Source of the DNA: an uncultured Methylococcaceae bacterium
GTDB lineage: Bacteria; Pseudomonadota; Gammaproteobacteria; Methylococcales; Methylomonadaceae
Direction of reading: 5' to 3'
NCBI GenBank assembly: GCA_903903765.1
Contig: CAIVAH010000044.1
Location: 1-13,819, forward strand
DNA length: 13,819 bases
The notes beneath the pieces are model-generated. The model was given only the letters and a program-made list of their open reading frames with translations. It ran no database searches and was not told where the DNA came from. The translations under genes were made by a program, and so were the position numbers. This document shows positions 1 to 13,819 of this stretch, in pieces (positions within the stretch are counted from its first letter, which is position 1; every line of letters starts with the position of its first letter).

Positions 1-1
1 G

Positions 2-1501
2 ATAGAAGCCACAGCAGAAAGCTTAGCAATACCTGTTGTTCTAGAAGGCTATGAGCCACCTAGAGATTATCGTATAGAGCGTCTAATGGTCACACCCGAT
101 CCAGGCGTTATTGAAGTTAATATTCACCCTTCTAAATCATGGGATGAGTTAGTAGAAAAAACCAATATTATTTACGATCAGGCGCATTTATCACGTTTAG
201 GTACTGAAAAATTTATGCAGGATGGAAGGCATACCGGAACCGGCGGTGGTAACCACGTCACGATGGGTGCGGAAATCCCTGCTGATAGCCCAATGTTGCG
301 ACGTCCCGATTTGTTACGTAGTTTGATTACCTATTGGCAACATCATCCAGGCTTGTCATATTTGTTTTCAGGTATGTTTATTGGTCCAACTAGTCAGGCG
401 CCTCGAGTTGATGAGGGTCGTGATGAGAAGTTATATGAATTAGAAATTGCTTTTCAACAAATGCCAGAAGGCGAAGTGCCCGCGCCTTGGTTAGTTGATA
501 GACTATTGCGACATTTATTGACAGATATTACTGGTAATACGCACCGATCAGAGTTCTGTATAGATAAATTATATTCGCCAGATAGTTCGACAGGGCGATT
601 GGGTATTTTGGAGTTACGTTCATTTGAAATGCCCCCGCATGCGCAAATGTCTTTAGTGCAAGTTGTACTTTTAAGATCATTGATTGCATGGTTTTGGCGT
701 GAGCCTTATAAACACGATTTAGTAAGATGGGGTACTGAGTTACATGATCGTTTTATGTTGCCACATTATGTGCATGAAGACATGCGTCAAGTCACTAAAG
801 ATTTGCAGCGCGCAGGTTTTGCCTTTGATCTTGGATGGTTAGCTCCGTTTTTTGAGTTTAGATTTCCACGTTACGGTAATACGCTCATTGATGGTATGGA
901 TATGGAATTACGCTTTGCTATTGAGCCTTGGCATGTGCTGGGTGAAGAAATGAGTAGTTCAGGTACGGCCCGTTATGTGGATTCTTCAGTAGAGCGTGTT
1001 CAAATAGCTGTTACTGGCTTTACTGAAGGTCGTTATGTCATTGCATGTAATGGTCGTCGGGTCCCTATGCGTAATACAGGCCGTAAAGGTGAATATGTGG
1101 CCGGTGTACGTTATCGCGCCTGGCAACCACCTTCAGCATTACACCCAACTATTGCGCCACATACGCCTTTAGTCTTTGATGTGATAGATACTTGGAATGG
1201 ACGATCAGTGGGTGGTTGTACCTATTATGTCGCTCATCCTGGTGGACGTAGTTACGATGATTTTCCTGTTAATGATTATGCGGCAGAAACTCGCAGAATG
1301 ACACGATTCTGGGATTATGGTCACACACCTGGTGTTATCATCAGGCCACCATTAGCAACGACCCGTGATGTAGCATCGGATGAACCGTTTTTACAAAACT
1401 TTAAAGTGAGTGATAAAGCGCCCAGCGCCATGGCCCCCCCGGTTGAAGAGTTGAGCTTGGATTATCCTTTTACATTAGATTTACGTCATCGCACTCGGTA
1501 G
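2..1501 (+). CDS. Transglutaminase/DUF2126 family protein, C-terminal part (5' end outside window)
   Basis: The reading frame is open from base 2, and the residues before the first in-frame ATG at 86 (ending ...DYRIERL) read straight into the conserved segment MVTPDPGVIEVNIHP. This is therefore the C-terminal 499 residues of a longer protein, not a gene starting at 86. Full-length relatives are about 1,100 residues, with an N-terminal transglutaminase-like domain (not visible here) and a C-terminal DUF2126 region regarded as a putative amidoligase. The glycine-rich motif GTGGGNH (bases 236-256) followed by VTMGAEIP resembles the nucleotide/metal-site motifs of glutamine-synthetase-like enzymes. 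Substrate and product are unknown. Such genes usually sit beside ATP-grasp, alpha-E and transglutaminase genes, as here. The run of seven C at 1434-1440 keeps the frame open. Family assignment is firm; enzymatic role is inferred. Confidence 0.88.
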   Translation: MEATAESLAIPVVLEGYEPPRDYRIERLMVTPDPGVIEVNIHPSKSWDELVEKTNIIYDQAHLSRLGTEKFMQDGRHTGTGGGNHVTMGAEIPADSPMLRRPDLLRSLITYWQHHPGLSYLFSGMFIGPTSQAPRVDEGRDEKLYELEIAFQQMPEGEVPAPWLVDRLLRHLLTDITGNTHRSEFCIDKLYSPDSSTGRLGILELRSFEMPPHAQMSLVQVVLLRSLIAWFWREPYKHDLVRWGTELHDRFMLPHYVHEDMRQVTKDLQRAGFAFDLGWLAPFFEFRFPRYGNTLIDGMDMELRFAIEPWHVLGEEMSSSGTARYVDSSVERVQIAVTGFTEGRYVIACNGRRVPMRNTGRKGEYVAGVRYRAWQPPSALHPTIAPHTPLVFDVIDTWNGRSVGGCTYYVAHPGGRSYDDFPVNDYAAETRRMTRFWDYGHTPGVIIRPPLATTRDVASDEPFLQNFKVSDKAPSAMAPPVEELSLDYPFTLDLRHRTR

Positions 1502-1510
1502 ATTTTGGTG

Positions 1511-1540
1511 AGTTGGGTTAAACTAGTGTAAGCCAACTTT
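1511..1540 (+). terminator. Possible intrinsic terminator after the DUF2126 gene
   Basis: An AGTTGG arm (1511-1516) pairs with CCAACT (1533-1538). Three more inner pairs follow past one mismatch, and the stem runs into only three T. It lies ten bases after the TAG stop and ahead of gltA. The short T tract makes this a weak terminator at best. Confidence 0.35.
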
Positions 1541-1579
1541 CATTGTGTCAAAAATGCGATAGTGGTAATACCCATTACT

Positions 1580-2902
1580 AGGAGATTAATTTAAATGAGT
1601 AATAAATTAAAACTGTTAAATCCTGCTACATTGACTTTGGATGATCAAAGTTATTCTTTGCCCACTTACATGGGGATTGAGGGTGAGAAAGCCATTGATA
1701 TTACAAAGCTACGAAGCCAAACAGGTTACGTTACCTTAGATGATGGTTACGGAAATACGGGTGCTTGTGAAAGTGCAATCACTTATATTGACGGTGAAAA
1801 AGGAATCTTACGTTACCGTGGTTATCCCATTGAAGAGTTAGCCGAGTACTCACGGTTTGTTGAAGTTGCTTATTTATTACTTTATGGTGAATTACCAACA
1901 TCCGATAAATTATTACAGTTTTCAACGCGTCTTAATGAATCCTCAATTATTCATGAGGATATGCACCATTTCTTTAATGGCTTTCCTCGTGGTTCTCATC
2001 CAATGGGTATTTTAACGACAATGGTAGCTTCTTTATCTACGTTTTATCCGGTGCCTGATCGTTTAGATGAGCAGACCGAAATACAAATTGTGGCAAATCT
2101 AGTTTCTCAAGTGCGTACTATTGCAGCCTTTTCTTATAAGAAGTCAATTGGTGAGCCACTGGTTTATCCTTCTATTAAGTATAAATACACCAGTAACTTC
2201 TTGAATATGATGTTCTCGTCACCGGTACGTGATTATCAATTAGATATGGATATCGTTCGGGCCATTGATATGGTTTTAATTCTGCATGCTGATCATGAGC
2301 AAAACTGTAGTACATCTTCTGTTCGAACTGCTGGATCGAGTATGGCTAATGTATACGCGGTAATTACTGCGGGTATTGCAGCGCTTTGGGGGCCTCGTCA
2401 CGGTGGAGCAAATCAAGAAGTTATTAAAATGTTGGAGCAAATTCACGCCGAAGGTGGTGATGGTACTGAGTTCATTAACCAAGCGAAAGACAAAAAATCG
2501 GGTAAACGTTTAATGGGCTTTGGGCATAGAGTTTATAAAAACTTTGATCCACGCGCGCAAGTTTTAAAGAAGCATTGTGATAAATTATTAAACAAATCAG
2601 GTATTAATGATCCGCTATTAGATATTGCACGCCGGATTGAAGAAATTGCACTCAGTGATGAATATTTTATTTCTCGTAAGCTATATCCTAATGTTGATTT
2701 TTATTCAGGTTTAATCTTAAGAGCGGCTGGAATTCCAACTAATATGTTTACAGTTTTATTTGCAATTGGGCGTATGCCTGGGTGGTTAGCACATTGGCGT
2801 GAAATGATTCATGGTGAACAAGTGACAATTTATAGACCCCGGCAAATTTATACAGGAGAAAAAATGCGGCATTACGAGGAAATCAGCTTAAGAACTGATT
2901 GA
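1580..2902 (+). CDS. gltA: Citrate synthase, type II (CDS 1595-2902)
   Basis: Condenses oxaloacetate and acetyl-CoA to citrate, the entry step of the TCA cycle, in the cytosol. The 435-residue product has the roughly 50-residue N-terminal extension of the long hexameric, NADH-sensitive Gram-negative enzymes (E. coli GltA is 427). The catalytic residues are visible: His269 in WGPRHGGAN, His311 in FGHRVYKN and Asp368 in YPNVDFYSG, matching E. coli His264, His305 and Asp362. His231 in HADHEQNCST matches the oxaloacetate-binding His226. The ATG at 1595 is preceded by AGGAG at 1580-1584, ten bases upstream, which fixes the start. It is a single gene with 93 bases before it and 112 after. Its position between the DUF2126 gene and the ATP-grasp gene is unusual. 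The N-terminal extension argues against the shorter 2-methylcitrate synthase PrpC. Confidence 0.96.
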
Positions 2903-2954
2903 TCGATGTCCATGCAAAAAAGCTCTATTTTAACCTTACATTCAAAAAGTTGGG

Positions 2955-2982
2955 TTAAGGATATTTCGAGTAAAAGGATAAT
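2955..2982 (+). promoter_or_regulatory. Candidate promoter for the ATP-grasp/Anbu operon
   Basis: GATAAT at 2977-2982 (five of six to the -10 consensus) lies 16 bases after TTAAGG at 2955-2960 (weak -35). It sits in the 112-base gap between gltA and the GTG start at 3015. GGGTTA (2952-2957) and TAACCC (2982-2987) form an inverted repeat around it. Suggestive only. Confidence 0.3.
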
Positions 2983-3014
2983 AACCCGATACGAAATAGT
3001 TTAAGGAATAATCG

Positions 3015-5582
3015 GTGCGCAATAACACTTTGGCTAACGATATTGGTACGCAATATTATGCAACACAGCTAGGTATATATGATGAAATGTACGCTAATAA
3101 AGTTAAAGTGTTGCCTTACTGGGAACGCTTTATGGCGGCATTGGATAGTATGGGTACCGAAAATTTGGAGTTGCGCAGAAGAGAGGCTCAACGCCTATTG
3201 CGTGAGAACGGTGTTACTTATAATGTTTATGGCGATTCACAAAATTTAACCAGACCGTGGCGACTTGATCCTGTTCCACTATTAATTAGTAGTGAAGAGT
3301 GGGTTATTATTGAGTCTGGTCTTGAGGAACGCGCAGAATTACTCGATTTAATATTAAAAGATATTTATGGTAAACAATCACTATTAAAAAAAGGGCTATT
3401 ACCACCAGAGTTAGTTTATAGCCACGAAGGTTTTTTACATCCTTGCGTTGGTGCTTTACAAAAACAAAAACGTCATTTAACTATTTATTCGGCTAACCTT
3501 GCACGTGGTCCTAATGGCCGTATGTGGGTTTTGGATGATAGAGCACAGGCGCCATCAGGCTCAGGTTATGCTTTAGAAAATCGTACAGTAATGACTCGTG
3601 TGTTACCCGATATTTTTAGGCAGACTCAAGTTCATCGCTTATCTGGTTTTTTTAAGTCTCTGCATAAAGGTCTTGTAGATATTGGTTCTCATAAAAAAGA
3701 AGATCCACGTATAGTCATATTGACACCTGGTCCACTCAATGAAACTTATTTTGAGCATGCTTATTTAGCAGCTTATTTAGGATACACCTTGGTTCAAGGT
3801 GGTGACTTAACCGTTCGAGATGGCAAGGTTTGGCTCAAATCATTATCAGGCTTACAAGCCGTTGATGTGATCTTGCGGCGGGTAGATGATTCATTTTGTG
3901 ACCCATTAATGTTACGCAGTGAATCAAAACTTGGTGTCGCGGGTTTGTTAGAAGCTGTTCGCAGAGGTAATGTCGCAATAGCAAATCCCTTAGGTAGTAG
4001 TGTGTTAGAAAACCCAGCACTTATGGCCTTTTTACCTAGGTTAGCTAGATATTTTTTAAATGATGAATTAAAACTTCCGTCTATAGCAACTTGGTGGTGT
4101 GGCCAGTCCAGAGAAAGGGATTTTGTATTGCAACATCTAGATAGTTTAGTGATTAAACCTATTAATCGTGGTTTTGGAAATCATGCCGTGTTTGGTGGCA
4201 GTTTAAGTAATAAAGAAAAAGAAAATTTACGCGGTCAAATCATTGCTAAGCCACATTTGTTTATTGGTCAAGAGCAAGTGAGTTTCTCTACCTTACCTGC
4301 TTTTATTGATAACAAAATAGAGGCTCGAAATGCTTTGTTAAGAACTTTTGTGGTAGCGAGTGGTAACGACTACAAAGTAATGCCGGGGGGGTTAACTCGA
4401 GTTGCACGGCAAAAAGACAACTTTATAGTTTCTAATCAAGCTGGTGGTATCAGTAAAGATACTTGGGTGTTAGCATCAGAGCCGGATAAGCCTGTTAGTT
4501 TGTGGACACAGCCAAGACGAAATCAGTTAATAGATGCAGAAACTGATGCTTTAACAAGTAGAGCGGCAGACAACCTATTTTGGGTAGGGCGGCATTTAGA
4601 AAGAACAGAGGCTGTGACTCGTTTATTGCGAGTTATTCTAGTTAAATATAGAGAAGTATTTGAATTTAAGGATCAACATGATGAGGCATGTTTACAAGTT
4701 ATATTAAGGACTTTGACTCAAGTTACAGGAACTTATCCCGGATTTATAAAATGTGATGAGCAATTTATAAAAGTACCCGATATAGAGTTAATGTCTTTGG
4801 TTAAAGATGCTTTTCGGAGGGGAACTTTAACGTCTAATGTTCAGGCTTTTTTTCAAGCAGCTTTTAGTATTCGAGATTTATGGTCACAAGATACTTGGCG
4901 TAGTGTAGATAATATTCAGCGTAGGTGGCAGCAAAGAATAAATAATGTCGATTTAAATATAGAACATTTACCCAACCATTTAGATGACTTAATGACAGGC
5001 ATCGTAGCCTTTACTGGATTGACTAGTGAAAGTATGACACGTGAAGCGTCTTGGTTAATGCTAGATAGCGGTCGTAGATTAGAGCGTGCGTTAGCATTAA
5101 TAGCTTTATTACGCTCTACGTTAGCTTTACGACATGAGGATATATTACAAACACAAGTTCTAGAGGCCGTTTTAGTTGTAACTGATAGTTTAACGATTTA
5201 TCAGAGACGCTATAGATCTTATATTCAGTTACCTTTAGTCTTGGAATTGCTTTTATTAGATGATGCGCACCCAAGATCAATTGCTTATCAGTTGCAGCAA
5301 TTATGTATTCATATTGGCGCGTTACCAAGAAGTAAAGGAAAGGGTCAGTTAAGTGCAGAGGAGCGTTTAATTTTAAAAGCTTTTACAGATTTACGCTTAT
5401 GTAATGTGCAGGAACTAACACAAGTTAATGAAGATGATGGTGTTTATCAAAAATTTGAAGAGTTAATGTCTAATACAACAGACCTGTTATGGCAGACTTC
5501 AGAGTTGATTGCAGAGGCTTATTTCAGCCATTCACAAACTTCTCAGTTGATGGTGCTTAATACAAGCGAGGATGAGCTTTGA
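3015..5582 (+). CDS. Fused circularly permuted type 2 ATP-grasp / alpha-E domain protein
   Basis: An 855-residue fusion. Residues 1 to about 500 form the circularly permuted ATP-grasp domain (COG2308 type), with VLDDRAQAPSGSGYALENR, TPGPLNETYFEHAYLAAYLG, RRVDDSFCDP, the nucleotide-side lysine K381 in VIKPINRGFGN, and PGGLTRVA near its end. From about residue 513 comes the all-helical alpha-E domain (COG2307), starting SRAADNLFWVGRHLERTE and repeating the ER signature in SGRRLERALALIALL. ATP-grasp enzymes of this type are thought to ligate carboxylates to amines; the true substrate is unknown. The start is GTG with AAGGA at 3003-3007, eight bases upstream. The stop overlaps the next start (TTGA), indicating translational coupling. 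Compared with the split copy at 8937-11323, the glycine-rich loop is diverged (GFGNHAVFGG instead of GGYGMLVG), suggesting a different substrate. A run of seven G lies at 4385-4391. Confidence 0.93.
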   Translation: MRNNTLANDIGTQYYATQLGIYDEMYANKVKVLPYWERFMAALDSMGTENLELRRREAQRLLRENGVTYNVYGDSQNLTRPWRLDPVPLLISSEEWVIIESGLEERAELLDLILKDIYGKQSLLKKGLLPPELVYSHEGFLHPCVGALQKQKRHLTIYSANLARGPNGRMWVLDDRAQAPSGSGYALENRTVMTRVLPDIFRQTQVHRLSGFFKSLHKGLVDIGSHKKEDPRIVILTPGPLNETYFEHAYLAAYLGYTLVQGGDLTVRDGKVWLKSLSGLQAVDVILRRVDDSFCDPLMLRSESKLGVAGLLEAVRRGNVAIANPLGSSVLENPALMAFLPRLARYFLNDELKLPSIATWWCGQSRERDFVLQHLDSLVIKPINRGFGNHAVFGGSLSNKEKENLRGQIIAKPHLFIGQEQVSFSTLPAFIDNKIEARNALLRTFVVASGNDYKVMPGGLTRVARQKDNFIVSNQAGGISKDTWVLASEPDKPVSLWTQPRRNQLIDAETDALTSRAADNLFWVGRHLERTEAVTRLLRVILVKYREVFEFKDQHDEACLQVILRTLTQVTGTYPGFIKCDEQFIKVPDIELMSLVKDAFRRGTLTSNVQAFFQAAFSIRDLWSQDTWRSVDNIQRRWQQRINNVDLNIEHLPNHLDDLMTGIVAFTGLTSESMTREASWLMLDSGRRLERALALIALLRSTLALRHEDILQTQVLEAVLVVTDSLTIYQRRYRSYIQLPLVLELLLLDDAHPRSIAYQLQQLCIHIGALPRSKGKGQLSAEERLILKAFTDLRLCNVQELTQVNEDDGVYQKFEELMSNTTDLLWQTSELIAEAYFSHSQTSQLMVLNTSEDEL

Positions 5583-6535
5583 AATATCGTATTACGCACA
5601 GTACGCTTTATGATTACAGTCAATCAGTGGGGTTATGTCAAAATGAAGCACGACTTCTACCTCGTAACTTCTGGCGTCAGCAAGAGGACAGTAGCCATTT
5701 TGAGATAACACCAAGCCCTACTGATTTTAATGAGAGGATTGATTTTTTTGGTAATAGGGTAGTTTACTTTGCAGTGCAAAAACCACATACCAAATTATTA
5801 GTTACTGTAATTAGTGAAGTGAGTATTTTTCCAAAACAAAATGGTTTGGATTTGTTCAATTCGATTACTTGGGAGCAAGTGGTACAGATTTTACAGTCAA
5901 ATTCATCATTGAATAGTCAGGCTGAGTTTTCTGAGCGCCAAAGTCAGAGCCAATCCCAAACGCAGAGTCAAAGTACAGCGTATGCATTTGAGATACTCGA
6001 TGCTCGACAATATGTACTAGATTCTCCCATGGTTTCTGTCAACCCAGAGTTGGCTGACTATGCATGTTTGTCTTTTCAACCTAATAGAGCCTTAATCGAT
6101 GTGGTATATGATTTGATGGCGCGTATTTATAAAGATTTTACGTATGATCCGACTTTTACTACGATAGCAACCCCGTTAATTGACGTCCTGCGTTTTAGAC
6201 GTGGTGTATGTCAAGATTTTGCGCATTTAGCAATAGCTTGTTTACGTTCTTTTGGGATAGCAGCTAGATACGTAAGCGGTTATGTTGAGACAATGCCTGA
6301 GCAAGGTAAGCCTCGTTTAGTGGGGGCTGATGCTTCACATGCATGGTTTTCAGTTTATATTCCTGCAATAGGTTGGATGGATTTTGATCCTACAAATAAT
6401 AAAGTTCCATATGATCAACATATTACCTTGGCATGGGGGCGAGATTTTTCGGATGTAACACCTCTTAAGGGCATAGCGTTTGGGGGGGGGCAGCATACCT
6501 TGTCTGTTTCTGTTGACGTTTTAAGGTTGACATAA
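5579..6535 (+). CDS. Transglutaminase-like cysteine protease family protein (COG1305)
   Basis: A 318-residue protein with the N-terminal beta domain typical of bacterial transglutaminase-like proteins (KYRITHSTLYDYSQ). The papain-fold core has Cys211 in RRGVCQDFAHLA, His254 in ASHAWFSVY and Asp270 in DFDPTN, a complete catalytic triad. Prokaryotic members mostly act as peptidases or amide-bond exchangers rather than true cross-linkers; the substrate here is unknown. There is no signal peptide, so it is probably cytosolic. Translation starts at TTG, which shares bases with the upstream TGA; GAGG at 5568-5571 supports it. Residues 119-133 are a low-complexity Ser/Gln insert between the two domains. 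A run of nine G (6482-6490) encodes Gly302-304 near the C-terminus, a spot prone to slippage or sequencing error. Confidence 0.92.
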   Translation: MKYRITHSTLYDYSQSVGLCQNEARLLPRNFWRQQEDSSHFEITPSPTDFNERIDFFGNRVVYFAVQKPHTKLLVTVISEVSIFPKQNGLDLFNSITWEQVVQILQSNSSLNSQAEFSERQSQSQSQTQSQSTAYAFEILDARQYVLDSPMVSVNPELADYACLSFQPNRALIDVVYDLMARIYKDFTYDPTFTTIATPLIDVLRFRRGVCQDFAHLAIACLRSFGIAARYVSGYVETMPEQGKPRLVGADASHAWFSVYIPAIGWMDFDPTNNKVPYDQHITLAWGRDFSDVTPLKGIAFGGGQHTLSVSVDVLRLT

Positions 6536-6564
6536 GTGCGAAGAATTTTATAGTTTTTTAGTTT

Positions 6565-7272
6565 AGAGGAGGCAAGATGGCTACAATACATATGATAGGT
6601 GGGGAAAAAGGTGGTGTCGGTAAATCAGTAGTGGCGCGCTTATTAGCCCAATACATGATAGATAACGAAATACCTTTTGTGGGATTTGATACCGATAGAT
6701 CACATGGTTCATTACTGAGGTTTTATTCAGATTATGCGTCGCCCACAATTATAGATAGTTATCAAAGTTTAGATGCAATTATAGAGGTGGCGGCTGAAAA
6801 TCCTTATCAACGTGTTTTAGTTGATCTTGCAGCTCAAACCCATCAAGCACTTGCAAAATGGATTGATGATTCTGGGGTTTTGGAATTAGCAGAAGAATTA
6901 GATATCAAAATTTATTACTGGAATGTGATGGATTCAGGTAAAGATTCTGTTGATCTACTTAATAAATTATTAACACAGTTTGGTTCTCGATTTAATTATG
7001 TGTTAGTGCAAAATCAATTGCGTGATGAACACTTTAATATACTAGAGTTTTCTGGCGTTAAGGAAAGAGCTTTGGCTTTTAATGCACAAGTAATGACGTT
7101 AAAACGGTTGCATGCAACTGTAATGACTAAAATAGATGGTAATAGTTACAGTTTTTGGGCGGCAAAAAATAAAGATAATCAAAGTCTTGATGCTTTAGGT
7201 TTGTTAGAAAGACAACGAGTTAAGATTTGGTTAAATCATGCTTATAAGCAATTTGAATCACTAGTGATTTAA
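6565..7272 (+). CDS. ParA/MinD/CobQ-type P-loop ATPase (CDS 6577-7272)
   Basis: A 231-residue single-domain SIMIBI-class NTPase. The deviant Walker A motif is KGGVGKS (residues 11-17) with signature lysine K11 and phosphate-binding K16. The Walker A' aspartate lies in GFDTDRS (around D38), and Walker B is VLVDLAAQ with D83. The sequence resembles the small group annotated as nucleotide-binding or TraL-like mobilisation proteins, but no plasmid, partition or conjugation genes are nearby and no ParB-like partner is present. A role as a switch or positioning ATPase for the surrounding amidoligase/transglutaminase proteins is inference from position only. The start has the strongest ribosome-binding site in the window, AGAGGAGG at 6565-6572. 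It lies 41 bases after one transglutaminase gene and 26 before another, in the same direction, so co-transcription is likely. Confidence 0.88.
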   Translation, partial: RGGKMATIHMIGGEKGGVGKSVVARLLAQYMIDNEIPFVGFDTDRSHGSLLRFYSDYASPTIIDSYQSLDAIIEVAAENPYQRVLVDLAAQTHQALAKWIDDSGVLELAEELDIKIYYWNVMDSGKDSVDLLNKLLTQFGSRFNYVLVQNQLRDEHFNILEFSGVKERALAFNAQVMTLKRLHATVMTKIDGNSYSFWAAKNKDNQSLDALGLLERQRVKIWLNHAYKQFESLVI

Positions 7273-7298
7273 AAATTATTCTCAACCATTTTACTGAT

Positions 7299-8087
7299 AT
7301 GAAATTAAGAGTCAGTTGCAGTCTGCGTTTTCAAGTGATTGAAGCCAGTGTGTTAATTTTAATGCTTAGGCCGTATCGAGGCATACAGCAGTGGATTAAC
7401 CGTGAAGTTTATGTGGTTAGGCCTGTAATACCGATGCTTGAAAGTACAGATAGCTTTGGTAATTCATTGCAGCGATTAATGGCACCAGTAGGTAATTTTT
7501 TAATTTATACCTCAACCGATGTAATTGTTGCAGATAAAGTTGATTTTGCTTCGGGCGCGCATTTTGTTGAGATACAAGATTTGCCAAATTATGTGTTGCC
7601 TTTTTTATTACCCAGTCGATATTGTGAATCAGATCGTTTCGGAGATTTGGCAAGAGATATAACAAAAGCCGCGTTGCCTGGGTATGATCAAGTGAGTAAG
7701 ATCAATGAATGGGTGCGAGAATTTATTGAATATGTGCCTGGATCCAGTGAATATCCGTTATCAGCTATAGAGGTTCATCAGCGTGGACAGGGTGTGTGCA
7801 GAGATTTAGCTCAAGTTGCAATAGCATTGTGTCGCAGTATTAGTATTCCTACACGATTAGTCGTAGGCTATTTATATAATCTTCAACCCATGGATTTACA
7901 TGCGTGGTTTGAGGCTTATGTTGGTGGTAAGTGGTATACATTTGATCCAACTCAGTCTGATTTAATAGGTGGTAGGGTTATTGTAGCGTTTGGAAGAGAT
8001 GCTGCAGATGTTTCTATTTTTCATCAATTTGGTTCTGGTTGTATGTTAAACGAGATGGACGTTCGAGTCGATTTACTGGATAATTAG
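7299..8087 (+). CDS. Second transglutaminase-like cysteine protease family protein
   Basis: A 262-residue protein of the same broad family as the 5579-6535 gene but clearly diverged and shorter. An N-terminal beta-rich region is followed by the core with Cys167 in GQGVCRDLAQVA, His201 in MDLHAWFEAY and Asp216 in TFDPTQ, so the triad is intact. Transglutaminases of this kind accompany Anbu genes, and the next gene downstream is Anbu, so this copy is the likely member of the Anbu set. The other probably belongs with the ATP-grasp/alpha-E fusion and DUF2126. No signal peptide is seen. The ATG at 7299 has no recognisable Shine-Dalgarno sequence, only AT-rich bases, so expression may rely on the upstream ATPase gene. 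Substrate unknown. Confidence 0.9.
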   Translation: MKLRVSCSLRFQVIEASVLILMLRPYRGIQQWINREVYVVRPVIPMLESTDSFGNSLQRLMAPVGNFLIYTSTDVIVADKVDFASGAHFVEIQDLPNYVLPFLLPSRYCESDRFGDLARDITKAALPGYDQVSKINEWVREFIEYVPGSSEYPLSAIEVHQRGQGVCRDLAQVAIALCRSISIPTRLVVGYLYNLQPMDLHAWFEAYVGGKWYTFDPTQSDLIGGRVIVAFGRDAADVSIFHQFGSGCMLNEMDVRVDLLDN

Positions 8088-8119
8088 CATATTAAAAAAT
8101 TTTTATCATTTAAATAATT

Positions 8120-8875
8120 ATGACTTATTGTATTGCAGCGTCTATAGACGAAGGGTTAATTTTGGTTTCTGATTCCAGAACCAATGCTGGCATTGATAAT
8201 GTGAGTACTCATGGCAAAATGCACGCTTTTGATACTTCAAGTGATCGTAACATTGTATTGTTGAGTGCGGGTAATCTTGCAACAACACAAGCCGTATTAG
8301 AGCAATTACATCGCGATAAAATTAAAGATGTTGAAATAAATCTCAACAATGTAGAAAGCTTATTTGAAGCAGCTGATTATTTGGGACATGTCAGTGTAGA
8401 AAAGCAAAAACAACATAAAACAGATAAAGGGCAGTCAGCTTTTAATCCAACGGCTAGTTTTATTATCGCCGGACAAATTGATGATCAACCTGCTGCTGCA
8501 TACATGGTTTATGCGGAAGGTAATAGCATTACAACCTCTGCAAATACACCATTTTTACAAATCGGTGAGAGTAAATATGGTAAACCTATTTTGGATCGGT
8601 TTCTTAAATTGAATACTCCAATTGATGAAGCCGCGCGCTGTTGTTTAGTGTCTATGGATTCGACCATTCGTAGTAATGCGAGCGTAGGAGCGCCAGTTGA
8701 AATGCTAATTTATCGTAAAGATAGTCATACTTTTGAGGAGTACTATTGCTTCGATGATGACGATGATTATATGTTGCAACTCAGACGTAGTTGGGAAACT
8801 AAATTACGTGAAGCAATTTCAGCGTTACCAAACATAGACAAAAGGTCTCATAAGGTTATGCGCAGGGTTTTATAA
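8120..8875 (+). CDS. Anbu-type proteasome-related peptidase (ancestral beta subunit)
   Basis: A 251-residue N-terminal-nucleophile hydrolase of the proteasome/HslV superfamily. It begins MTYCIAASIDEGLILVSDSRTNAG: removal of Met1 would expose Thr2 as the catalytic threonine, with the conserved Asp18 and Lys33 (HGKMHAF) completing the site as in proteasome beta subunits. Anbu proteins form ring- or helix-like assemblies without a dedicated ATPase partner; natural substrates are not established. Length and opening match Anbu rather than HslV (about 175 residues). It closes the operon, 32 bases after a transglutaminase gene, and converges with the split alpha-E and ATP-grasp genes that normally accompany Anbu. 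An acidic run of five Asp lies near residue 225. No clear ribosome-binding site precedes the ATG. Confidence 0.93.
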   Translation: MTYCIAASIDEGLILVSDSRTNAGIDNVSTHGKMHAFDTSSDRNIVLLSAGNLATTQAVLEQLHRDKIKDVEINLNNVESLFEAADYLGHVSVEKQKQHKTDKGQSAFNPTASFIIAGQIDDQPAAAYMVYAEGNSITTSANTPFLQIGESKYGKPILDRFLKLNTPIDEAARCCLVSMDSTIRSNASVGAPVEMLIYRKDSHTFEEYYCFDDDDDYMLQLRRSWETKLREAISALPNIDKRSHKVMRRVL

Positions 8876-8893
8876 ACTTTGTAATCGGTTTTA

Positions 8894-8927
8894 CCTGATG
8901 AGTGAAGCGTTAACTTCACTCATCAGG
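8894..8927. terminator. Perfect 14-bp hairpin between convergent genes (probable bidirectional terminator)
   Basis: CCTGATGAGTGAAG (8894-8907) and CTTCACTCATCAGG (8914-8927) are exact inverted copies around the six-base loop CGTTAA. It lies between the Anbu stop (8875) and the end of the opposing alpha-E gene (8937), serving both transcripts. Neither side has a T tract, so it may act by RNA stability, by blocking read-through, or with Rho. Confidence 0.65.
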
Positions 8928-8936
8928 AGATGAATA

Positions 8937-9872
8937 TTATTCAGTTATAATCAGAAACCATTTATTTGTGATTTCGTTGTGTAGTCCACCTAGTTTGTTT
9001 TGTAAGTCATCAAGTATGCCTCTTAATTGCGCTTGAGTTGTTTCTTTTGTATTTATGGTTTGTGCGTAATTTTGTAGCTCAGAAATTTTTGTAGGTATAT
9101 CTCCGTTGTTTGGTAGTTTTGTAATACATTCAGATATTTCAGATATACAGCAACTTATAGAACGGGGTAGGTTCTGATCTTTTAGTAGAAAGTTAAGTAC
9201 ATCATCTCCATTGACACGACTATGCTTCTGTTGACGATACATTAATAAAGCATTTAAAGCCTTTAATACATTCATCCACAAAATAGTTTCATATTGGCGA
9301 ACCTCATCACTTCGAGATTCGGATAGAAGTAAAGATGCCAAATCTAATATTCGACTCGTCATATCAGCACGTTCAATATTTCTACCTAAACGAATAAAAG
9401 CATAAGGGTCATTATGACTCATATAGCCAGATAATAGGCCTGTAAAACGTTGGCAGCCTTTTAATATTTCATTAAGAAATATTACTCTATGTCGTCTATT
9501 AGCAACGGTTTCTAAATTCTTTTTAGCAAATAAATGCATTTCATTAACCTGCTCCCAAGCTTCATCTGGTAACAAGTCCCTGGATGTGCGTATGTTTTCT
9601 CTTGCGGCAGTTAAAGAGGATAAAAGTGAGCCTTGGTATGTGTCATCAGCTAATAAAAATCGGGTGATATTGCGTTCGTTGGCTACATTATATTTTTCAT
9701 AAAATATTTGTTCGGAGGCGTTAATCAAAATTAACTGGCGCCAGCTCATTTCCACACCCTTAGGCAAGTCCATGAGTAAGTTCATGTGTACATTAACAAG
9801 TCTAGCTATGTTTTCTGTGCGTTCTATATATCGGGCAAGCCAATAAATACGTTCAGCTGAGCGTGATAACAT
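8937..9872 (-). CDS. Stand-alone alpha-E domain protein (COG2307)
   Basis: A 311-residue, almost entirely helical protein. The family signature opens it (LSRSAERIYWLARYIERTENIARL) and recurs around the middle as RLGRNIERADMTSRILDLASLL, reflecting an internal repeat. Alpha-E proteins have no known catalytic activity and always accompany circularly permuted ATP-grasp enzymes, so they are presumed partner subunits. The gene overlaps the upstream ATP-grasp gene by one base (TAATG), with GGAGG at 9884-9880, seven bases before the ATG: a tightly coupled pair. It is a paralogue of residues 513-855 of the fusion encoded at 3015-5582. It is transcribed toward Anbu and ends 61 bases from that gene's stop. 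Confidence 0.93.
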   Translation of the reverse strand: MLSRSAERIYWLARYIERTENIARLVNVHMNLLMDLPKGVEMSWRQLILINASEQIFYEKYNVANERNITRFLLADDTYQGSLLSSLTAARENIRTSRDLLPDEAWEQVNEMHLFAKKNLETVANRRHRVIFLNEILKGCQRFTGLLSGYMSHNDPYAFIRLGRNIERADMTSRILDLASLLLSESRSDEVRQYETILWMNVLKALNALLMYRQQKHSRVNGDDVLNFLLKDQNLPRSISCCISEISECITKLPNNGDIPTKISELQNYAQTINTKETTQAQLRGILDDLQNKLGGLHNEITNKWFLIITE

Positions 9873-11323
9873 TATTTATCCTCCATGTTAATAATCCAAG
9901 TATCTTTACTTCCACCACCTTGAGAAGAATTGACCACTAACGAACCTTTTTTTAAGGCCACTCGGGTAAGGCCACCAGCTGTTACAAAGGTATCTTGACC
10001 TTGCAGAATAAAGGGGCGCAAATCAATATGTCGGGGTTCTAATTTGCTTTTGCACAATGTTGGTGCGGTAGATATTGATAAGGTGGGTTGAGCTATATAG
10101 TTTCGAGGGTCTTTTTGAATTATTTCTCTAAAACTTTCTACCTCTTTGGTCGTAGCATGTGGCCCTACTAACATACCATAACCACCTGATTCGTTTGCTG
10201 GTTTTACCACAAGCTCTGCAAGATGTTCTAATACATATTCAAGATGATCAGGATTGCTACATAGATAAGTGGGGACATTAGGTAATATGGGTTCTTCATT
10301 CAAAAAATAACGTATCATTTCTGGTACATAAGCATAGACAACTTTGTCATCGGCGACCCCAGCACCTGGTGCATTAGCTAAGGCAACATTGCCAGCTTTC
10401 CACGCCCTCATTAAACCTTTTACACCTAAAGTTGAGTCTTTACGGAAGACTTCAGGATCAAGAAAATCATCATCAATTCGACGATAAATGACATCAACTT
10501 TTTCAAGACCTCGAATGGTTTTCATGTAGACGCAGTCATCATCGTTAACAACTAGATCATTACCTTCGACTAATTGAGCACCCATTTGTTGAGCTAAATA
10601 GGCGTGTTCAAAATAGGCGGAATTGTATATGCCAGGTGTGAGCACAGCGCAATTAATTTGCCCATTTTGGTGCGGTGCAATTGAAGTGAGCATGTCATGT
10701 AAATGCGTTGGATAGTCGTCAATAGGAAGAATATCAATATCTTGAAATAACTCAGGAAAAACACGTTTAGTAATGATACGATTTTCAAGCATGTAAGAAA
10801 CTCCCGAAGGGACTCTTAAATTGTCTTCAAGTACATACATAATACCGTCTTTATCGCGCACCAAATCAGTGCCGCAGATGTTAGCCCATACATTGTGTTT
10901 TGGTTTCATGCCTACGCATTCTTTGCGAAAGTTCTTAGAACTGTTCACTATTTCGCCAGGCATTTTTCCATCTTTAATAAAGGCTTGCTCTCCATACACA
11001 TCACTGATGAAACAGTTTAAAGCGGTTAAACGTTGTTTTAAACCCTTTTCTATAATGCGCCATTCCCGAGCATCAATTATGCGAGGGATAATATCGAAAG
11101 GCCACGCCCTATCTATGTTTCCTTCATCACTGTAAACTGTAAAACTAATGCCCATTTCCATAATAGCTAGTTCAGCAGCGGTCTTTCGTTTATCGATATC
11201 TTCTTTGTTTAGAGAATCTAGGTATCGACATAATTGATGGCTCACCGGACGAGATTGAAACTCAGAATACATCAATTCATCGTATGCAACGTCAGTTTTA
11301 TAGTTTTCCCAAATTGATTTCAT
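9872..11323 (-). CDS. Stand-alone circularly permuted type 2 ATP-grasp protein (COG2308)
   Basis: A 483-residue predicted ATP-dependent carboxylate-amine ligase with the full set of family motifs. These are VLEDNLRVPSGVSYMLENR (164-182), LTPGIYNSAYFEHAYLA (around 228-243), YRRIDDDFLDP (280-290), K374 in VVKPANESGGYGMLVGP with its glycine-rich loop, and GGLTRVALKKG near the C-terminus. It keeps the canonical residues, unlike the fused paralogue at 3015-5582, where several are substituted. With alpha-E it forms the pair found with Anbu elsewhere. Predictions for this family suggest it makes peptide-like or amide-linked products; none is proven here. The ATG at 11323 has only a weak GAAG upstream. 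Transcription probably starts in the divergent region shared with the cysteine synthase gene. Confidence 0.94.
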   Translation of the reverse strand: MKSIWENYKTDVAYDELMYSEFQSRPVSHQLCRYLDSLNKEDIDKRKTAAELAIMEMGISFTVYSDEGNIDRAWPFDIIPRIIDAREWRIIEKGLKQRLTALNCFISDVYGEQAFIKDGKMPGEIVNSSKNFRKECVGMKPKHNVWANICGTDLVRDKDGIMYVLEDNLRVPSGVSYMLENRIITKRVFPELFQDIDILPIDDYPTHLHDMLTSIAPHQNGQINCAVLTPGIYNSAYFEHAYLAQQMGAQLVEGNDLVVNDDDCVYMKTIRGLEKVDVIYRRIDDDFLDPEVFRKDSTLGVKGLMRAWKAGNVALANAPGAGVADDKVVYAYVPEMIRYFLNEEPILPNVPTYLCSNPDHLEYVLEHLAELVVKPANESGGYGMLVGPHATTKEVESFREIIQKDPRNYIAQPTLSISTAPTLCKSKLEPRHIDLRPFILQGQDTFVTAGGLTRVALKKGSLVVNSSQGGGSKDTWIINMEDK

Positions 11324-11474
11324 GGCACTTCAGCTTTTAAAGTTTAGTTCGTTGTAATTTAAAGCATGATTGATGCCAGATATAAACCGCAAAATTTATA
11401 ACTTATTTTCGATTGCTCACTAAAAATTAAGGGTTCAATAATAAGACTAGGCAATATTGCTGGGATATCAGCAC

Positions 11475-11503
11475 CAAATAAACACCTCATGTTCATTTGT
11501 CAA
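11475..11503 (-). promoter_or_regulatory. Candidate promoter for the split ATP-grasp/alpha-E operon
   Basis: On the - strand TTGACA (11503-11498) is a perfect -35, but the hexamer 17 bases on (11480-11475, TATTTG) matches the -10 at only three positions. It lies about 150 bases ahead of the ATG at 11323. Its -35 is within ten bases of the opposite-facing cysteine synthase promoter, so the two could interfere. Confidence 0.3.
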
Positions 11504-11511
11504 CAGTTTTG

Positions 11512-11540
11512 TTGGTTTATTTTATTAAAATGTATATAAT
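11512..11540 (+). promoter_or_regulatory. Sigma70-type promoter for the cysteine synthase operon
   Basis: A perfect TATAAT at 11535-11540 is placed exactly 17 bases after TTGGTT at 11512-11517 (three strong positions of the -35). Transcription would start near 11547, giving a leader of about 170 bases before the ATG at 11716. The weak -35 fits a promoter that depends on an activator or is regulated. Confidence 0.6.
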
Positions 11541-11545
11541 ATACA
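11531..11545. promoter_or_regulatory. Perfect 15-bp palindrome over the -10 (candidate operator)
   Basis: TGTATAT-A-ATATACA is an exact inverted repeat with a one-base centre that contains the whole -10 hexamer and ends about two bases before the predicted start site. A bound dimeric regulator here would block RNA polymerase. An AT-rich palindrome can arise by chance, so the operator role is inferred. Confidence 0.4.
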
Positions 11546-11546
11546 G

Positions 11547-11715
11547 ATGGTTGCACTTTGGCATTGCGTGTGCTTTAGGGTCATAACGTGTAGAGTACTT
11601 TAAAAAAATCAAGCAAACTGACCGGACAACCGGAAGCCAGCGAATCCTAAGGGTAGCTGGTTTTTTTTTGGCTAAATTTCGCTACCTTCCAAACTAGCAC
11701 ACTTTAGGTATTATT
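11547..11715 (+). promoter_or_regulatory. Structured 5' leader of the cysteine synthase operon (possible attenuator or riboswitch)
   Basis: The leader holds hairpin CCGG-ACAA-CCGG (11622-11633), then a terminator-like hairpin ending in nine T (listed separately), then the start codon 46 bases later. AGGGTAGC (11650-11657), which includes the terminator's 3' arm, can instead pair with GCTACCTT (11681-11688; one G-U), giving a competing antiterminator. CCTAAGG in the terminator loop (11646-11652) also complements both copies of CTTTAGG. One is in the early leader (11573-11579); the other (11702-11708) overlaps the AGG ribosome-binding site. The architecture suggests conditional read-through. 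I do not recognise a known class with confidence; the AAGCCA...CTAAGG...TAGCTGG run only loosely recalls half of a GEMM-type element. Confidence 0.5.
11634..11669 (+). terminator. Terminator-like hairpin with nine T in the leader
   Basis: CCAGC (11637-11641) pairs with GCTGG (11656-11660). An inner stem ATCC/GGGT closes on the loop TAA, and AAG/TTT pairs can extend the base. Nine T follow (11661-11669). It is placed after the promoter but before the cysteine synthase ATG, so it would stop the operon unless bypassed. Confidence 0.65.
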
Positions 11716-12693
11716 ATGGCAAATTGGTATACAGACAATTCTCATTCTATTGGCAGAACTCCTTTAGTTCGGCTTAATCGCATTATCGATGAGGCTCCGG
11801 TAACAGTATTGGCGAAAATTGAAGGCCGAAATCCGGCTTATTCAGTTAAATGTCGAATAGGTGCCGCGATGGTGTGGGATGCACAGAAGCGGGGTTTACT
11901 TGGGTCGGGTAAAGAATTGGTTGAGCCGACTAGTGGTAATACTGGAATCGCTTTAGCCTTTGTGGCCGCCGCAATAGGCGTGCACTTAACTTTGACCATG
12001 CCAGAAACAATGAGTCTTGAGCGTAGAAAATTATTGATCGCTTATGGTGCAAAATTGATTTTAACAGAAGGGGCAAAAGGCATGAGTGGCGCTATTGCTA
12101 AAGCAGAAGAAATTGCTGCATCCGATCCAGATCGTTACGTGTTGTTGCAACAATTTAAGAATCCGGCCAATCCGGCTATTCATGAGGTTACTACAGGGCC
12201 AGAAATTTGGGAAGATACGGATGGTCAAATTGATATCTTAGTCTCTGGTGTAGGTACAGGTGGTACTATTACTGGCGTATCAAGATACATTAAACAGACT
12301 CGAGGTAAAGCTATTCAATCAATTGCTGTAGAGCCAGCTGCAAGCCCAGTGATTAGTCAGTATCGTGCGGGCCAACCATTGAAACCTGGTCCACATAAAA
12401 TACAGGGTATTGGTGCAGGTTTTATTCCTGATAATCTAGATCTTTCCTTGATTGATGAAGTGCAACAAGTGACTAATGAAGAAGCAATCGAATATGCAAG
12501 AAGACTGGCTAGAGAAGAAGGTATCTTAGCGGGTATTTCCTGTGGGGCCGCCGTTGCCGTGGCAAATCGTATTGCGCAACGCCCAGAAAATGCCGGTAAA
12601 ACAATTGTAGTGGTGTTACCTGATTCTGGAGAGCGCTATTTAAGCTCACCACTTTTTGAGGGTATTTTTGATGCGAGTGGATTTGCTGCATGA
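11716..12693 (+). CDS. cysK: Cysteine synthase A, O-acetylserine (thiol)-lyase, SrpG-like
   Basis: A PLP enzyme joining O-acetylserine and sulfide to cysteine plus acetate, in the cytosol. The 325-residue length is typical. Signatures are: the Schiff-base lysine K45 in [11 protein letters not shown], the substrate loop PTSGNTG (71-77), the phosphate-binding loop GTGGT (180-184), Ser275 in GISCGAA, and the terminal [10 protein letters not shown] (301-310). These fit CysK better than CysM or cystathionine beta-synthase. The ATG at 11716 has AGG at 11706-11708 as a modest ribosome-binding site. The stop overlaps the serine acetyltransferase start (ATGA), so the two are translationally coupled. 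The leader upstream suggests regulation by sulfur or cysteine supply (inferred). With the next two genes the order matches cyanobacterial srpG-srpH-srpI, suggesting this is a dedicated copy for that pathway rather than the sole housekeeping enzyme. Confidence 0.94.
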
Positions 12694-13628
12694 ACGATTA
12701 TCACCCTTTAAACGATAACTACGATTGGGGTATTGATAACCTAGTAGCCCAATTAAGAGAATTACGTTTACATTCATTAGAAACCAGAAGTTTATTGAAT
12801 CGTCCGCCTAAATTACCTTCTCGAAAAGAGTTACAGTTAATTTTAGAAGGCTTAGGCGCCGTTTTATTCCCTAACCGTTTGGGATTGCCAGATTTAAATG
12901 ATGAGGGTATCGATTACTTTGTGGGTCATACTTTAGAGAATTTATTGCGTAAACTTTATAAACAAATTAGTCGTGAATTGCAATTTGTCTATGGCTTACA
13001 AGGTGTAGATGATGCTGATGATGAACAAGCTATTAGTATAGCGCGGCAATTTGCTGCGCAATTACCGGTTATTAGAAAACTACTTGATACTGATATTCAG
13101 GCGGCTTATGAGGGTGATCCTGCCGCAAGAAGTCCTGATGAAGTGTTAGTTTGCTACCCTGGTATTACTGCCATTATTCATCATCGTTTAGCACATGTAC
13201 TTTATCAATTAGGTGCGCCTTTAGTCGCGCGTATTATTTCAGAAATTGCGCATTCAGCCACAGGGATTGACATTCATCCAGGGGCCAGAATCGATGAAAG
13301 TTTTTTTATTGATCATGGTACGGGTGTAGTGATTGGTGAAACCGCTATTATCGGTAAACGGGTGCGAGTCTATCAAGCAGTCACTTTAGGTGCTAAGCGT
13401 TTTGAAAAAGACAGTAAAGGGGTTTTGGTAAAAGGTAATGCTAGACATCCTATTGTTGAGGATGACGTAGTTATTTATGCGGGCGCGACGATATTGGGTC
13501 GAATTACTATAGGTAAGGGGACAACTATCGGGGGTAATGTTTGGTTAACCCATAGTGTGCCGCCTAATAGTAATATTTCCCAGGCCTATGTGCGTAGTGA
13601 AATGTTTAATGATGGCGGTGGTATTTAA
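12690..13628 (+). CDS. Serine O-acetyltransferase, EpsC/SrpH type
   Basis: Acetylates serine with acetyl-CoA to O-acetylserine, the substrate of the upstream enzyme. The 312-residue product has an N-terminal helical domain (to about 180), then left-handed beta-helix hexapeptide repeats from about residue 192. Asp194 in GIDIHPGAR and His209 in FIDHGTG match the catalytic Asp143 and His158 of E. coli CysE with identical spacing. [13 protein letters not shown] is typical of the EpsC/SrpH branch. The protein ends ...NDGGGI. A C-terminal isoleucine preceded by Gly is the element by which CysE inserts into the CysK active site, so a cysteine synthase complex is plausible. The ATG overlaps the preceding stop by four bases (ATGA), giving coupled translation. 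Deposited names for such genes vary (cysE, epsC, srpH). Confidence 0.93.
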
Positions 13629-13659
13629 ACTTTTGATAAATATCAGTCATTAAGTTTAC

Positions 13660-13728
13660 GGAAGCTCCAGCTTTCAATTATAGGAAGATCTCACTTCCAA
13701 AAAATATTCCAATCTGGAGATTGGAATA
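13660..13728 (+). repeat. Three tandem hairpins between the acetyltransferase and the next gene
   Basis: Within 70 bases lie GGAAGC/GCTTTC around TCCA (13660-13675), GGAAG/CTTCC around ATCTCA (13683-13698), and a near-perfect long stem TATTCCAATC/GATTGGAATA around TGGA (13705-13728). The first and third loops (TCCA, TGGA) are mutually complementary and could kiss. The third is followed by A residues rather than T, so it is not a classical terminator. Similar stretches ATCAGTCATTAA (13642-13653) and ATCAGTCCATTTAA (13732-13745) flank the set. A processing or stability element giving the downstream gene higher mRNA levels would fit. Confidence 0.55.
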
Positions 13729-13768
13729 AAAATCAGTCCATTTAATTAAATAACGATAGGAATCAACA

Positions 13769-13819
13769 ATGTCAGATATCCATGAAGGTAATCCCGCATT
13801 AGGTGATGTAGCAGCTCGC
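13769..13819 (+). CDS. Probable family 2A encapsulin shell protein, SrpI-like (first 17 codons; cut by window edge)
   Basis: An ATG at 13769 is preceded by AGGA (13758-13761) at seven bases, and the frame is open to the window end, giving MSDIHEGNPALGDVAAR. The segment NPALGDVAAR resembles the N-terminus I recall for SrpI of Synechococcus, which includes the stretch LALRDVAARQL. SrpI is a family 2A encapsulin that forms a protein shell loaded with a cysteine desulfurase. The position right after cysteine synthase and a SrpH-type serine acetyltransferase matches the srpG-srpH-srpI order. Only 17 residues are visible, so the call rests on a short match plus context. The cargo cysteine desulfurase and often a rhodanese would be expected just beyond the edge. 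Confidence 0.66.
   Translation, partial: MSDIHEGNPALGDVAAR

Follow-up and report, generated by a model that had tools for sequence, protein, structure and literature searches.

What operon begins at the right-hand edge of this stretch of DNA, and what controls it? The stretch, referred to here as the window, is 13,819 bases long (positions 1–13,819) and constitutes the entire contig C44 of its source metagenome-assembled genome (MAG), G000, an assembly of 1.92 Mb in 328 contigs with a completeness of 80.24%. Searches of named genomes gave 574 srpI matches that were confirmed, of which 80 were kept; the best of them come from Methylococcales MAGs and Methylobacter, and the source organism is probably a Methylobacter-like, methane-eating bacterium. 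A sequence-only reading of the window had claimed that a sulfur-metabolism encapsulin operon with the gene order srpG-srpH-srpI starts at its edge. SrpI acts as a sulfur store in other bacteria, and sulfur storage is associated with family 2A encapsulin shells. The reading reached here, to which we assign a probability of about 0.8, is that the window holds the beginning of a SrpI-type (family 2A) encapsulin operon, headed by a leader RNA proposed to act as a sulfur-responsive attenuator.

The identities of the two complete genes, both on the forward strand, follow directly from model searches and agree with the sequence-only description of a cysK-family gene followed by an EpsC/SrpH-type acetyltransferase. 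The first (11,716–12,693) encodes a cysteine synthase A (TIGR01139, 460 bits, cut-off 351; PALP) and is a homologue of the pANL cysK, which is named srpG. The second (12,690–13,628) encodes an EpsC-type serine O-acetyltransferase homologous to SrpH (NF041874, 167 bits, cut-off 150), which scores 169 bits with the cysE model TIGR01172, under that model's cut-off of 211. Its start overlaps the cysK stop (12,690 versus 12,693). The window SrpH is 58.4% identical to the copy on the Synechococcus elongatus plasmid pANL, over 96% of the query, and 96% identical to that of the congeneric genome G008; the corresponding figure for CysK and G008 is 95%. Downstream of srpH, the spacer at 13,660–13,730 is rich in hairpins, with perfect 11-base arms at 13,705–13,728, and a 36-base piece of it recurs on contig C274 of the same genome at 86% identity, perhaps as a small dispersed repeat.

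The third gene is represented by its 5' end only (13,769–13,819, forward strand), where an open frame from the ATG at 13,769 reads MSDIHEGNPALGDVAAR and is interrupted by the contig end, 17 codons in. Family 2A shells in same-genus loci start MSDIHEGNTALGDVAAR or a variant of it, the window having P for T, and 16 of the 17 window residues are identical to the SrpI N-terminus of such loci (e.g., L014, L016, L020, and L021). At the DNA level, 50 bases are 98% identical to G008 srpI (E 1.2e-16), so that the resemblance is not due to chance. The earlier naming of this gene as srpI from 17 residues was borne out, and these residues and the synteny with G008 over window positions 4977–13,818, the stretch compared, are decisive. 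The gene order that had also been offered as evidence was indeed seen, but it predicts srpI only partly. A search with the window SrpH found 36 close copies in other genomes of the genus and family, all of which were inspected; with four at or near a contig edge omitted (L167, L171, L173, and L174), srpI follows srpH in 19 of the remaining 32 and is absent after the other 13, which makes cysK-srpH alone a modest predictor. That cysK and srpH stand by themselves here as well, the terminal codons being part of something else, would accord with those 13 copies and can hardly be true given the residue and DNA matches and the synteny just described.

In G008, the order continues srpH-srpI-cargo, and the seven genes upstream of cysK are 84–96% identical between the two genomes; we infer that contig C44 would have continued in the same way. 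The search that had been proposed for the completed protein, Pfam and encapsulin models, was run on the syntenic G008 gene and returned a family 2A shell: NF041162 scores 525.5 bits (cut-off 380), the Pfam match is SrpI-like, and a phmmer comparison with the solved SrpI structure 6x8m gives 509.9 bits. The 2A model covers residues 1–295 of this 304-residue protein, the best stretch with the 2B model is confined to positions 209–450 of that model, and no cNMP-binding domain lies ahead of the capsid domain, as is characteristic of family 2A. The cargo is a cysteine desulfurase of 683 amino acids (NF041166, 895 bits, cut-off 800), with a SufS-like part from residue 283 and some 280 residues N-terminal to it. 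A shell accompanied by a SufS-like cargo with a long unannotated N-terminus is also what passages of a family 2A survey describe, which count 1281 family 2A cysteine desulfurase operons and list serine O-acetyltransferase as a common accessory (PMC8346489). The order cysK-epsC-srpI equals that of the cysK-epsC-srpI-cyd operon of S. elongatus pANL (family 2A; shell 6x8m/6x8t). A sulfur encapsulin operon at the window edge is confirmed, with its interpretation as family 2A with a cysteine desulfurase supported. Of the neighbors that had been predicted, the desulfurase with a long N-terminal part is present in G008 but was not found in G000, and the rhodanese that follows the cargo on pANL is replaced in G008, the only relative inspected for it, by an RTX-like open reading frame. 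Among the family 2A SrpI encapsulin operons, a kind already known, this one is unremarkable.

The remainder of srpI and the cargo gene were not found elsewhere in the incomplete G000 assembly when it was searched with the models NF041162 and NF041166 and with a 9-kb stretch of G008 DNA; the sole NF041166 match is a 370-aa frame at 106.7 bits against the cut-off of 800. A PF19307 search of G000 returned nothing but did so for the control genomes too and so says little. The best long G000 match to the G008 DNA, contig C156, was rejected, as it carries an RTX-type gene without neighboring synteny. The assemblies of G005, G028, G013, and G023 (contig C422) are likewise broken in or at srpI. Upstream of the operon, positions 3015–11,323 hold what looks like an Anbu-type cluster: ATP-grasp/alpha-E, a ParA/TraL-like ATPase, a pair of transglutaminase-like genes, and a protein that resembles the proteasome at 19.7 bits, under the Pfam cut-off of 22.4. 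It ends with alpha-E and an ATP-grasp-like gene on the opposite strand, and its gene order matches G008 as far as compared.

In a set of 61 genomes, G000 and 60 relatives, the shell model NF041162 has matches in 29 at E 0.001, scores that pass its cut-off in 26, and no match in G000. Across 11 complete loci, the shell varies least among the four proteins, with a median pairwise identity of 92.5% (CysK, 86.2%; SrpH, 80.8%; cargo, 66.6%); within the cargo, the value is 44.6% for the N-terminal extension and 81.0% for the catalytic part. The unit can also be divided or in decay. Four genomes (loci L040, L042, L044, and L045) carry srpI-cargo without cysK-srpH, which lies elsewhere in the genome, and in these the srpI-cargo pair adjoins a divergent methyltransferase-like gene (PEMT/ICMT; one was scanned). 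Decaying loci include L058 (G002, contig C18), where 94 C-terminal positions of the shell model precede a full cargo gene; L248 (G054), which consists of a leader, a cysK fragment, and a cargo fragment; and L060 (G057), with a partial shell and a split cargo.

EAL-domain proteins that stand alone and are often degenerate turn up repeatedly in the neighborhood of srp and cysTWA/sbp genes, for example at 23,567–24,406 of G000 contig C228 (L175) and at L127, L131, L145, and L124. Two families of them occur at 22 and 16 of the 80 named loci, respectively, and the Methylobacter-type one is found in 38 of the 61 genomes, with alanine dehydrogenase directly after it in 11 of the 19 loci examined. Alanine is a by-product of cysteine desulfurase. 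Alanine dehydrogenase and the EAL-like genes were considered as encapsulin partners and rejected, since they often form a pair of their own that lies beside srp, beside cysTWA, or elsewhere; a literature search for encapsulin together with an EAL domain gave no match.

The control of the operon is addressed by the sequence ahead of cysK, where an alignment of the upstream gap with G008 first revealed a well-kept block that a Blast search with 171 bases located in 27 of the 61 genomes. This block is a conserved leader RNA element (11,606–11,669, forward strand) consisting of a CCGG-N4-CCGG hairpin, a single A, and an intrinsic terminator, with the consensus GCUGA CCGG ANNA CCGG A AGCCAGYG ... 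CRCUGGCU plus a U tract. In the window, the hairpin, termed P1, reads CCGG-ACAA-CCGG (11,622–11,633, forward strand), and the terminator with its T9 tract occupies 11,635–11,669 on the same strand, the tract ending 46 bases before cysK. A first alignment of 55 copies (A3) was used to build a model, R1, with which the window element scores 69.4 bits (E 1.3e-13 in its own genome), a figure to be read with the fact that this copy was among the 55 training rows. A second alignment (A4) has 79 rows, 78 of them distinct, aligned to the R1 structure, a procedure that favors this structure; 55 copies had served to train R1.

On A4, where the pair counts are not independent events because the rows are related, 96.1% of the cells in P1 and the terminator are paired, 12 of the 16 pairs have changed on both sides, and all five measures of pairing lie above all 500 shuffles and also above slid versions of the structure. 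When P1 is extended outward by pairing GCU with AGC, which lies outside R1, 97.8% of cells are paired for extension and core together, and four of the five measures exceed all shuffles, while for the fifth, how many pairs have changed on both sides, 13 of 500 shuffles come at least as high and one slid version ties. Within this extension, the pair of columns 14 and 30 is U-A in 66 rows, C-G in 4, U-G in 4, and unpaired in 4, with four changes on both sides. The window and G008 have an A at column 12 (position 11,617 in the window) and lose the outermost of the three extension pairs; in the window, the other two can form between 11,618–11,619 and 11,635–11,636.

Column 30 can pair with terminator column 86 as well as with column 14. 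Over the 79 rows, columns 14, 30, and 86 read U-A-U in 67, C-G-C, C-A-U, and U-G-U in 3 each, and C-G-U, U-G-C, and A-A-U once each. The C-G-C rows look like the expected trace of mutually exclusive pairing, whereas the three C-A-U rows, which break the P1 extension, speak against it, and rows of either kind are few. When the RNA is cut before the 3' arm of the terminator, the minimum-energy fold contains pairs 12–32 and 13–31 in 68 of 79 copies (in the window, 13–31 and 14–30 instead), and at full length, 78 of 79 fold with the terminator. The window leader is not unusually stable relative to shuffled sequences (z −1.23).

Conservation, structure, and position of the leader are thus computed properties, as is its link with sulfur genes. 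A genome-wide scan of the 61 genomes with R1 under stricter filters separated 36 strong hits (at least 47.7 bits; 30 genomes, one or two per genome) from a weak tail of 15 (at most 39.8 bits). The next recognized gene is CysK for 23 of the strong hits, SrpH for 6, and SrpI for 4, i.e., 33 of 36, the others preceding a FadL-like gene, an OsmC-like gene, and a contig end. One of the CysK cases (G054) is a truncated gene with a piece of the cargo gene behind it, left by a deletion, and in one SrpH case (G003, contig C37) a 66-aa cysK remnant stands between leader and srpH. A strong leader occurs in 24 of the 26 genomes whose shell passes the cut-off, the exceptions being G046 and G013, the latter with a contig that begins just before srpI, and in 6 of the 35 others (G000, G005, G007, G010, G031, and G054); Fisher's test on these counts (24/6/2/29) gives p 2.5e-9 with relatedness ignored. 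The strong copy of G057 is not at its main srp locus, which has none. Where srpI-cargo and cysK-srpH are split, both units carry a leader in three of four genomes (G011, G016, and G033), and in the fourth, G032, the leader is at srpI only. A strong leader accompanies 5 of the 13 cysK-srpH copies that lack srpI (G003, G011, G016, G031, and G033) and is absent from the other 8.

Named genomes were surveyed as well, in a sample that is biased because the 80 loci were chosen for srpI. A hit of at least 45 bits occurs at 49 of these loci and one of 33 bits at another; the remaining 30, which include those of Nitrosomonas and Nitrosospira, stayed at or below 21.3 bits; L077, L078, and L152, which are among them, start inside the operon. 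Of 60 hits listed, the window included, 54 were examined, the window and the five weakest being omitted: 52 precede CysK (25), SrpH (21), or SrpI (6), and 2 precede a FadL-like gene (Pfam Toluene_X) after cysA. At L116, L122, and L126, a copy lies inside the operon before srpI, the latter two having another at the front, which at L122 precedes cysK. In 22 whole named genomes, likewise chosen for srpI, 22 hits of at least 43.6 bits fall in 16 genomes, and 17 of them precede srp units (CysK, 6; SrpH, 9; SrpI, 2). The others precede cysJ in Methylobacter tundripaludum (TIGR01931, 513 bits against a cut-off of 668, the frame being cut by the locus end), a sigma-54-interacting regulator in three Methylomonas cases (one scanned, two assigned by the same N-terminal sequence), and FadL in one. 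Across the class, a survey of 369 genomes under stricter filters, with only 14 candidates scored per genome, gave matches at 1e-4 in two, G000 and G039, which makes the range of the leader look narrow. Copies outside Methylococcales come from records named Methylovorus, Methylobacillus, and Methylotenera and from a few unnamed proteobacteria. The leader was not found on pANL, in contrast to the window operon, nor at a locus on a Variovorax plasmid (a shell is annotated in each of these two), nor at two further srpH loci without an annotated shell.

The region preceding the leader suggests where its transcript would begin. TTGACA is present in 53 of 79 copies within the 71 bases that precede GCUGA, compared with 1.5% of random 71-base pieces from the same loci, and in 29 of the 52 copies whose best promoter pair uses TTGACA, the paired −10 element ends 15–16 bases before GCUGA, so that transcripts would start just before P1. 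The window lacks TTGACA; 48 columns are gapped relative to G008 around positions 11,575–11,605, by real deletion or assembly fault, and its best sigma-70-like pair is TTGGCA-CATAAC. This loss and that of one extension pair mean that the window copy of the leader may be weakened.

A conserved, structured leader with an intrinsic terminator ahead of a gene is the arrangement typical of attenuators, and the best reading of the element is that it would act as a sulfur-responsive transcription attenuator; from the comparisons above we infer a start of transcription, a switch, and a signal as follows. RNA polymerase would start a few bases ahead of the leader, and the nascent RNA would fold P1, whose lower part can form pairs with the start of the terminator 5' arm. 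Persistence of the longer P1 would allow read-through, and if P1 gave way, the terminator would form and turn the operon off, the balance being set by a signal of sulfur status, either a metabolite bound directly or a protein. With the operon on, cysK and srpH would serve to make cysteine from serine and sulfide, and srpI would supply the shell. Enclosed in it would be the cysteine desulfurase that removes sulfur from cysteine, encoded by the gene after srpI, beyond the contig end. SrpI and its cargo increase when S. elongatus is starved of sulfate, according to passages of PMC8049743, which makes read-through under starvation the natural guess here.

The balance may be set by a ligand or by a protein, two readings that are about equally likely. 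The attenuator may be a metabolite riboswitch proper, in which P1 with its GA/A internal loop binds cysteine, O-acetylserine, sulfide, or activated sulfate and decides the fate of the terminator, a plausible view at a little less than even odds. The unpaired bases are indeed conserved (GA at columns 15–16 in 74 of 79 rows; A at column 29 in all 79), and the regulon is one of sulfur genes. There is precedent in the HMP-PP (thiS) riboswitch, whose very compact sensing part is likewise fused with an intrinsic terminator, as described in PMC6478431; its aptamer, however, is part of the terminator stem itself and responds to a thiamin precursor, whereas the hairpin here is separate, lies before the terminator, and is linked with sulfur genes. 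Against a riboswitch stands the size of the part outside the terminator, with only ~20 conserved bases. A protein that binds P1, leaving the RNA itself to sense nothing, has a chance that likewise falls somewhat short of one-half. One small hairpin at an invariant distance from the terminator (columns 1–36 are gap-free in 79 of 79 rows) would suit a protein target, as would a loop that is mostly ACAA (41 of 79), ACCA (17), or ATAA (7), but no candidate protein was found linked to the copies, the EAL-like neighbors being absent beside many of them.

It is improbable that the conserved block is instead a DNA operator for a dimeric regulator, placed beside the ordinary terminator of the upstream gene. 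The dyad symmetry of CCGG-N4-CCGG is what such a site would have, yet in 23 of 54 local copies the gene before the element is divergently oriented, so that no upstream transcript needs a terminator there, and the leader goes with srp units. The three-way changes at columns 14, 30, and 86 also tell against an operator, and a pure DNA operator is made less likely by the constant single base between P1 and the terminator and by the G-U pairs that occur within P1. Attenuation by ribosomes translating cysteine codons in a leader peptide, a mechanism put forward for the cysS leader motif uORFC-8-2 in passages of PMC8632094, shares with this leader a terminator and cysteine-related genes downstream but is very improbable, as there is no conserved frame with cysteine codons: 39 of 79 elements have a start with at least five codons, 1 of 79 has at least two cysteine codons, and a candidate at ~11,549–11,605 was rejected because G008 does not conserve its ATG and frames rich in cysteine are no general feature.

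Rfam 15 at gathering scores returned no match for the window and 12 loci with copies, and a lax search of window positions 11,324–13,819 and two copies gave nothing near a cut-off. No earlier account was found in Rfam 15 or in the literature searched, a scope that leaves out preprints and most subscription journals; "cysteine riboswitch" had no match, and papers retrieved for encapsulin with riboswitch were unrelated by title. The main text of PMC8346489, by word search, contains no riboswitch, and "RNA" appears in it only in a reference.

The operon type is known; just ahead of it lies a small and strongly conserved leader, switch-like in form and without a match in Rfam 15, that seems to govern sulfur genes. 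When and why such compartments act is left unsettled in the passages of PMC8049743, because the starvation-induced rise of shell and cargo in S. elongatus is accompanied by knock-outs without a growth defect; a reference title in the same article names a regulator of that organism, CysR. The leader offers a handle of ~65 bases for a direct in-tube test of candidate signals. It might, as a tentative proposal that we hold more doubtful than not, represent a new class of compact sulfur-sensing riboswitch in which P1 competes with the terminator, controlling in Methylococcales and some methylotrophic beta-proteobacteria a sulfur regulon of cysK, srpH, and srpI-cyd, joined in some genomes by cysJ, sigma-54 regulator, FadL-like, and OsmC-like genes, and thereby switching on sulfur encapsulins. 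Since the same leader precedes the encapsulin, the genes of cysteine synthesis and, in one genome, sulfite reductase, it would tie the encapsulin to sulfur assimilation.
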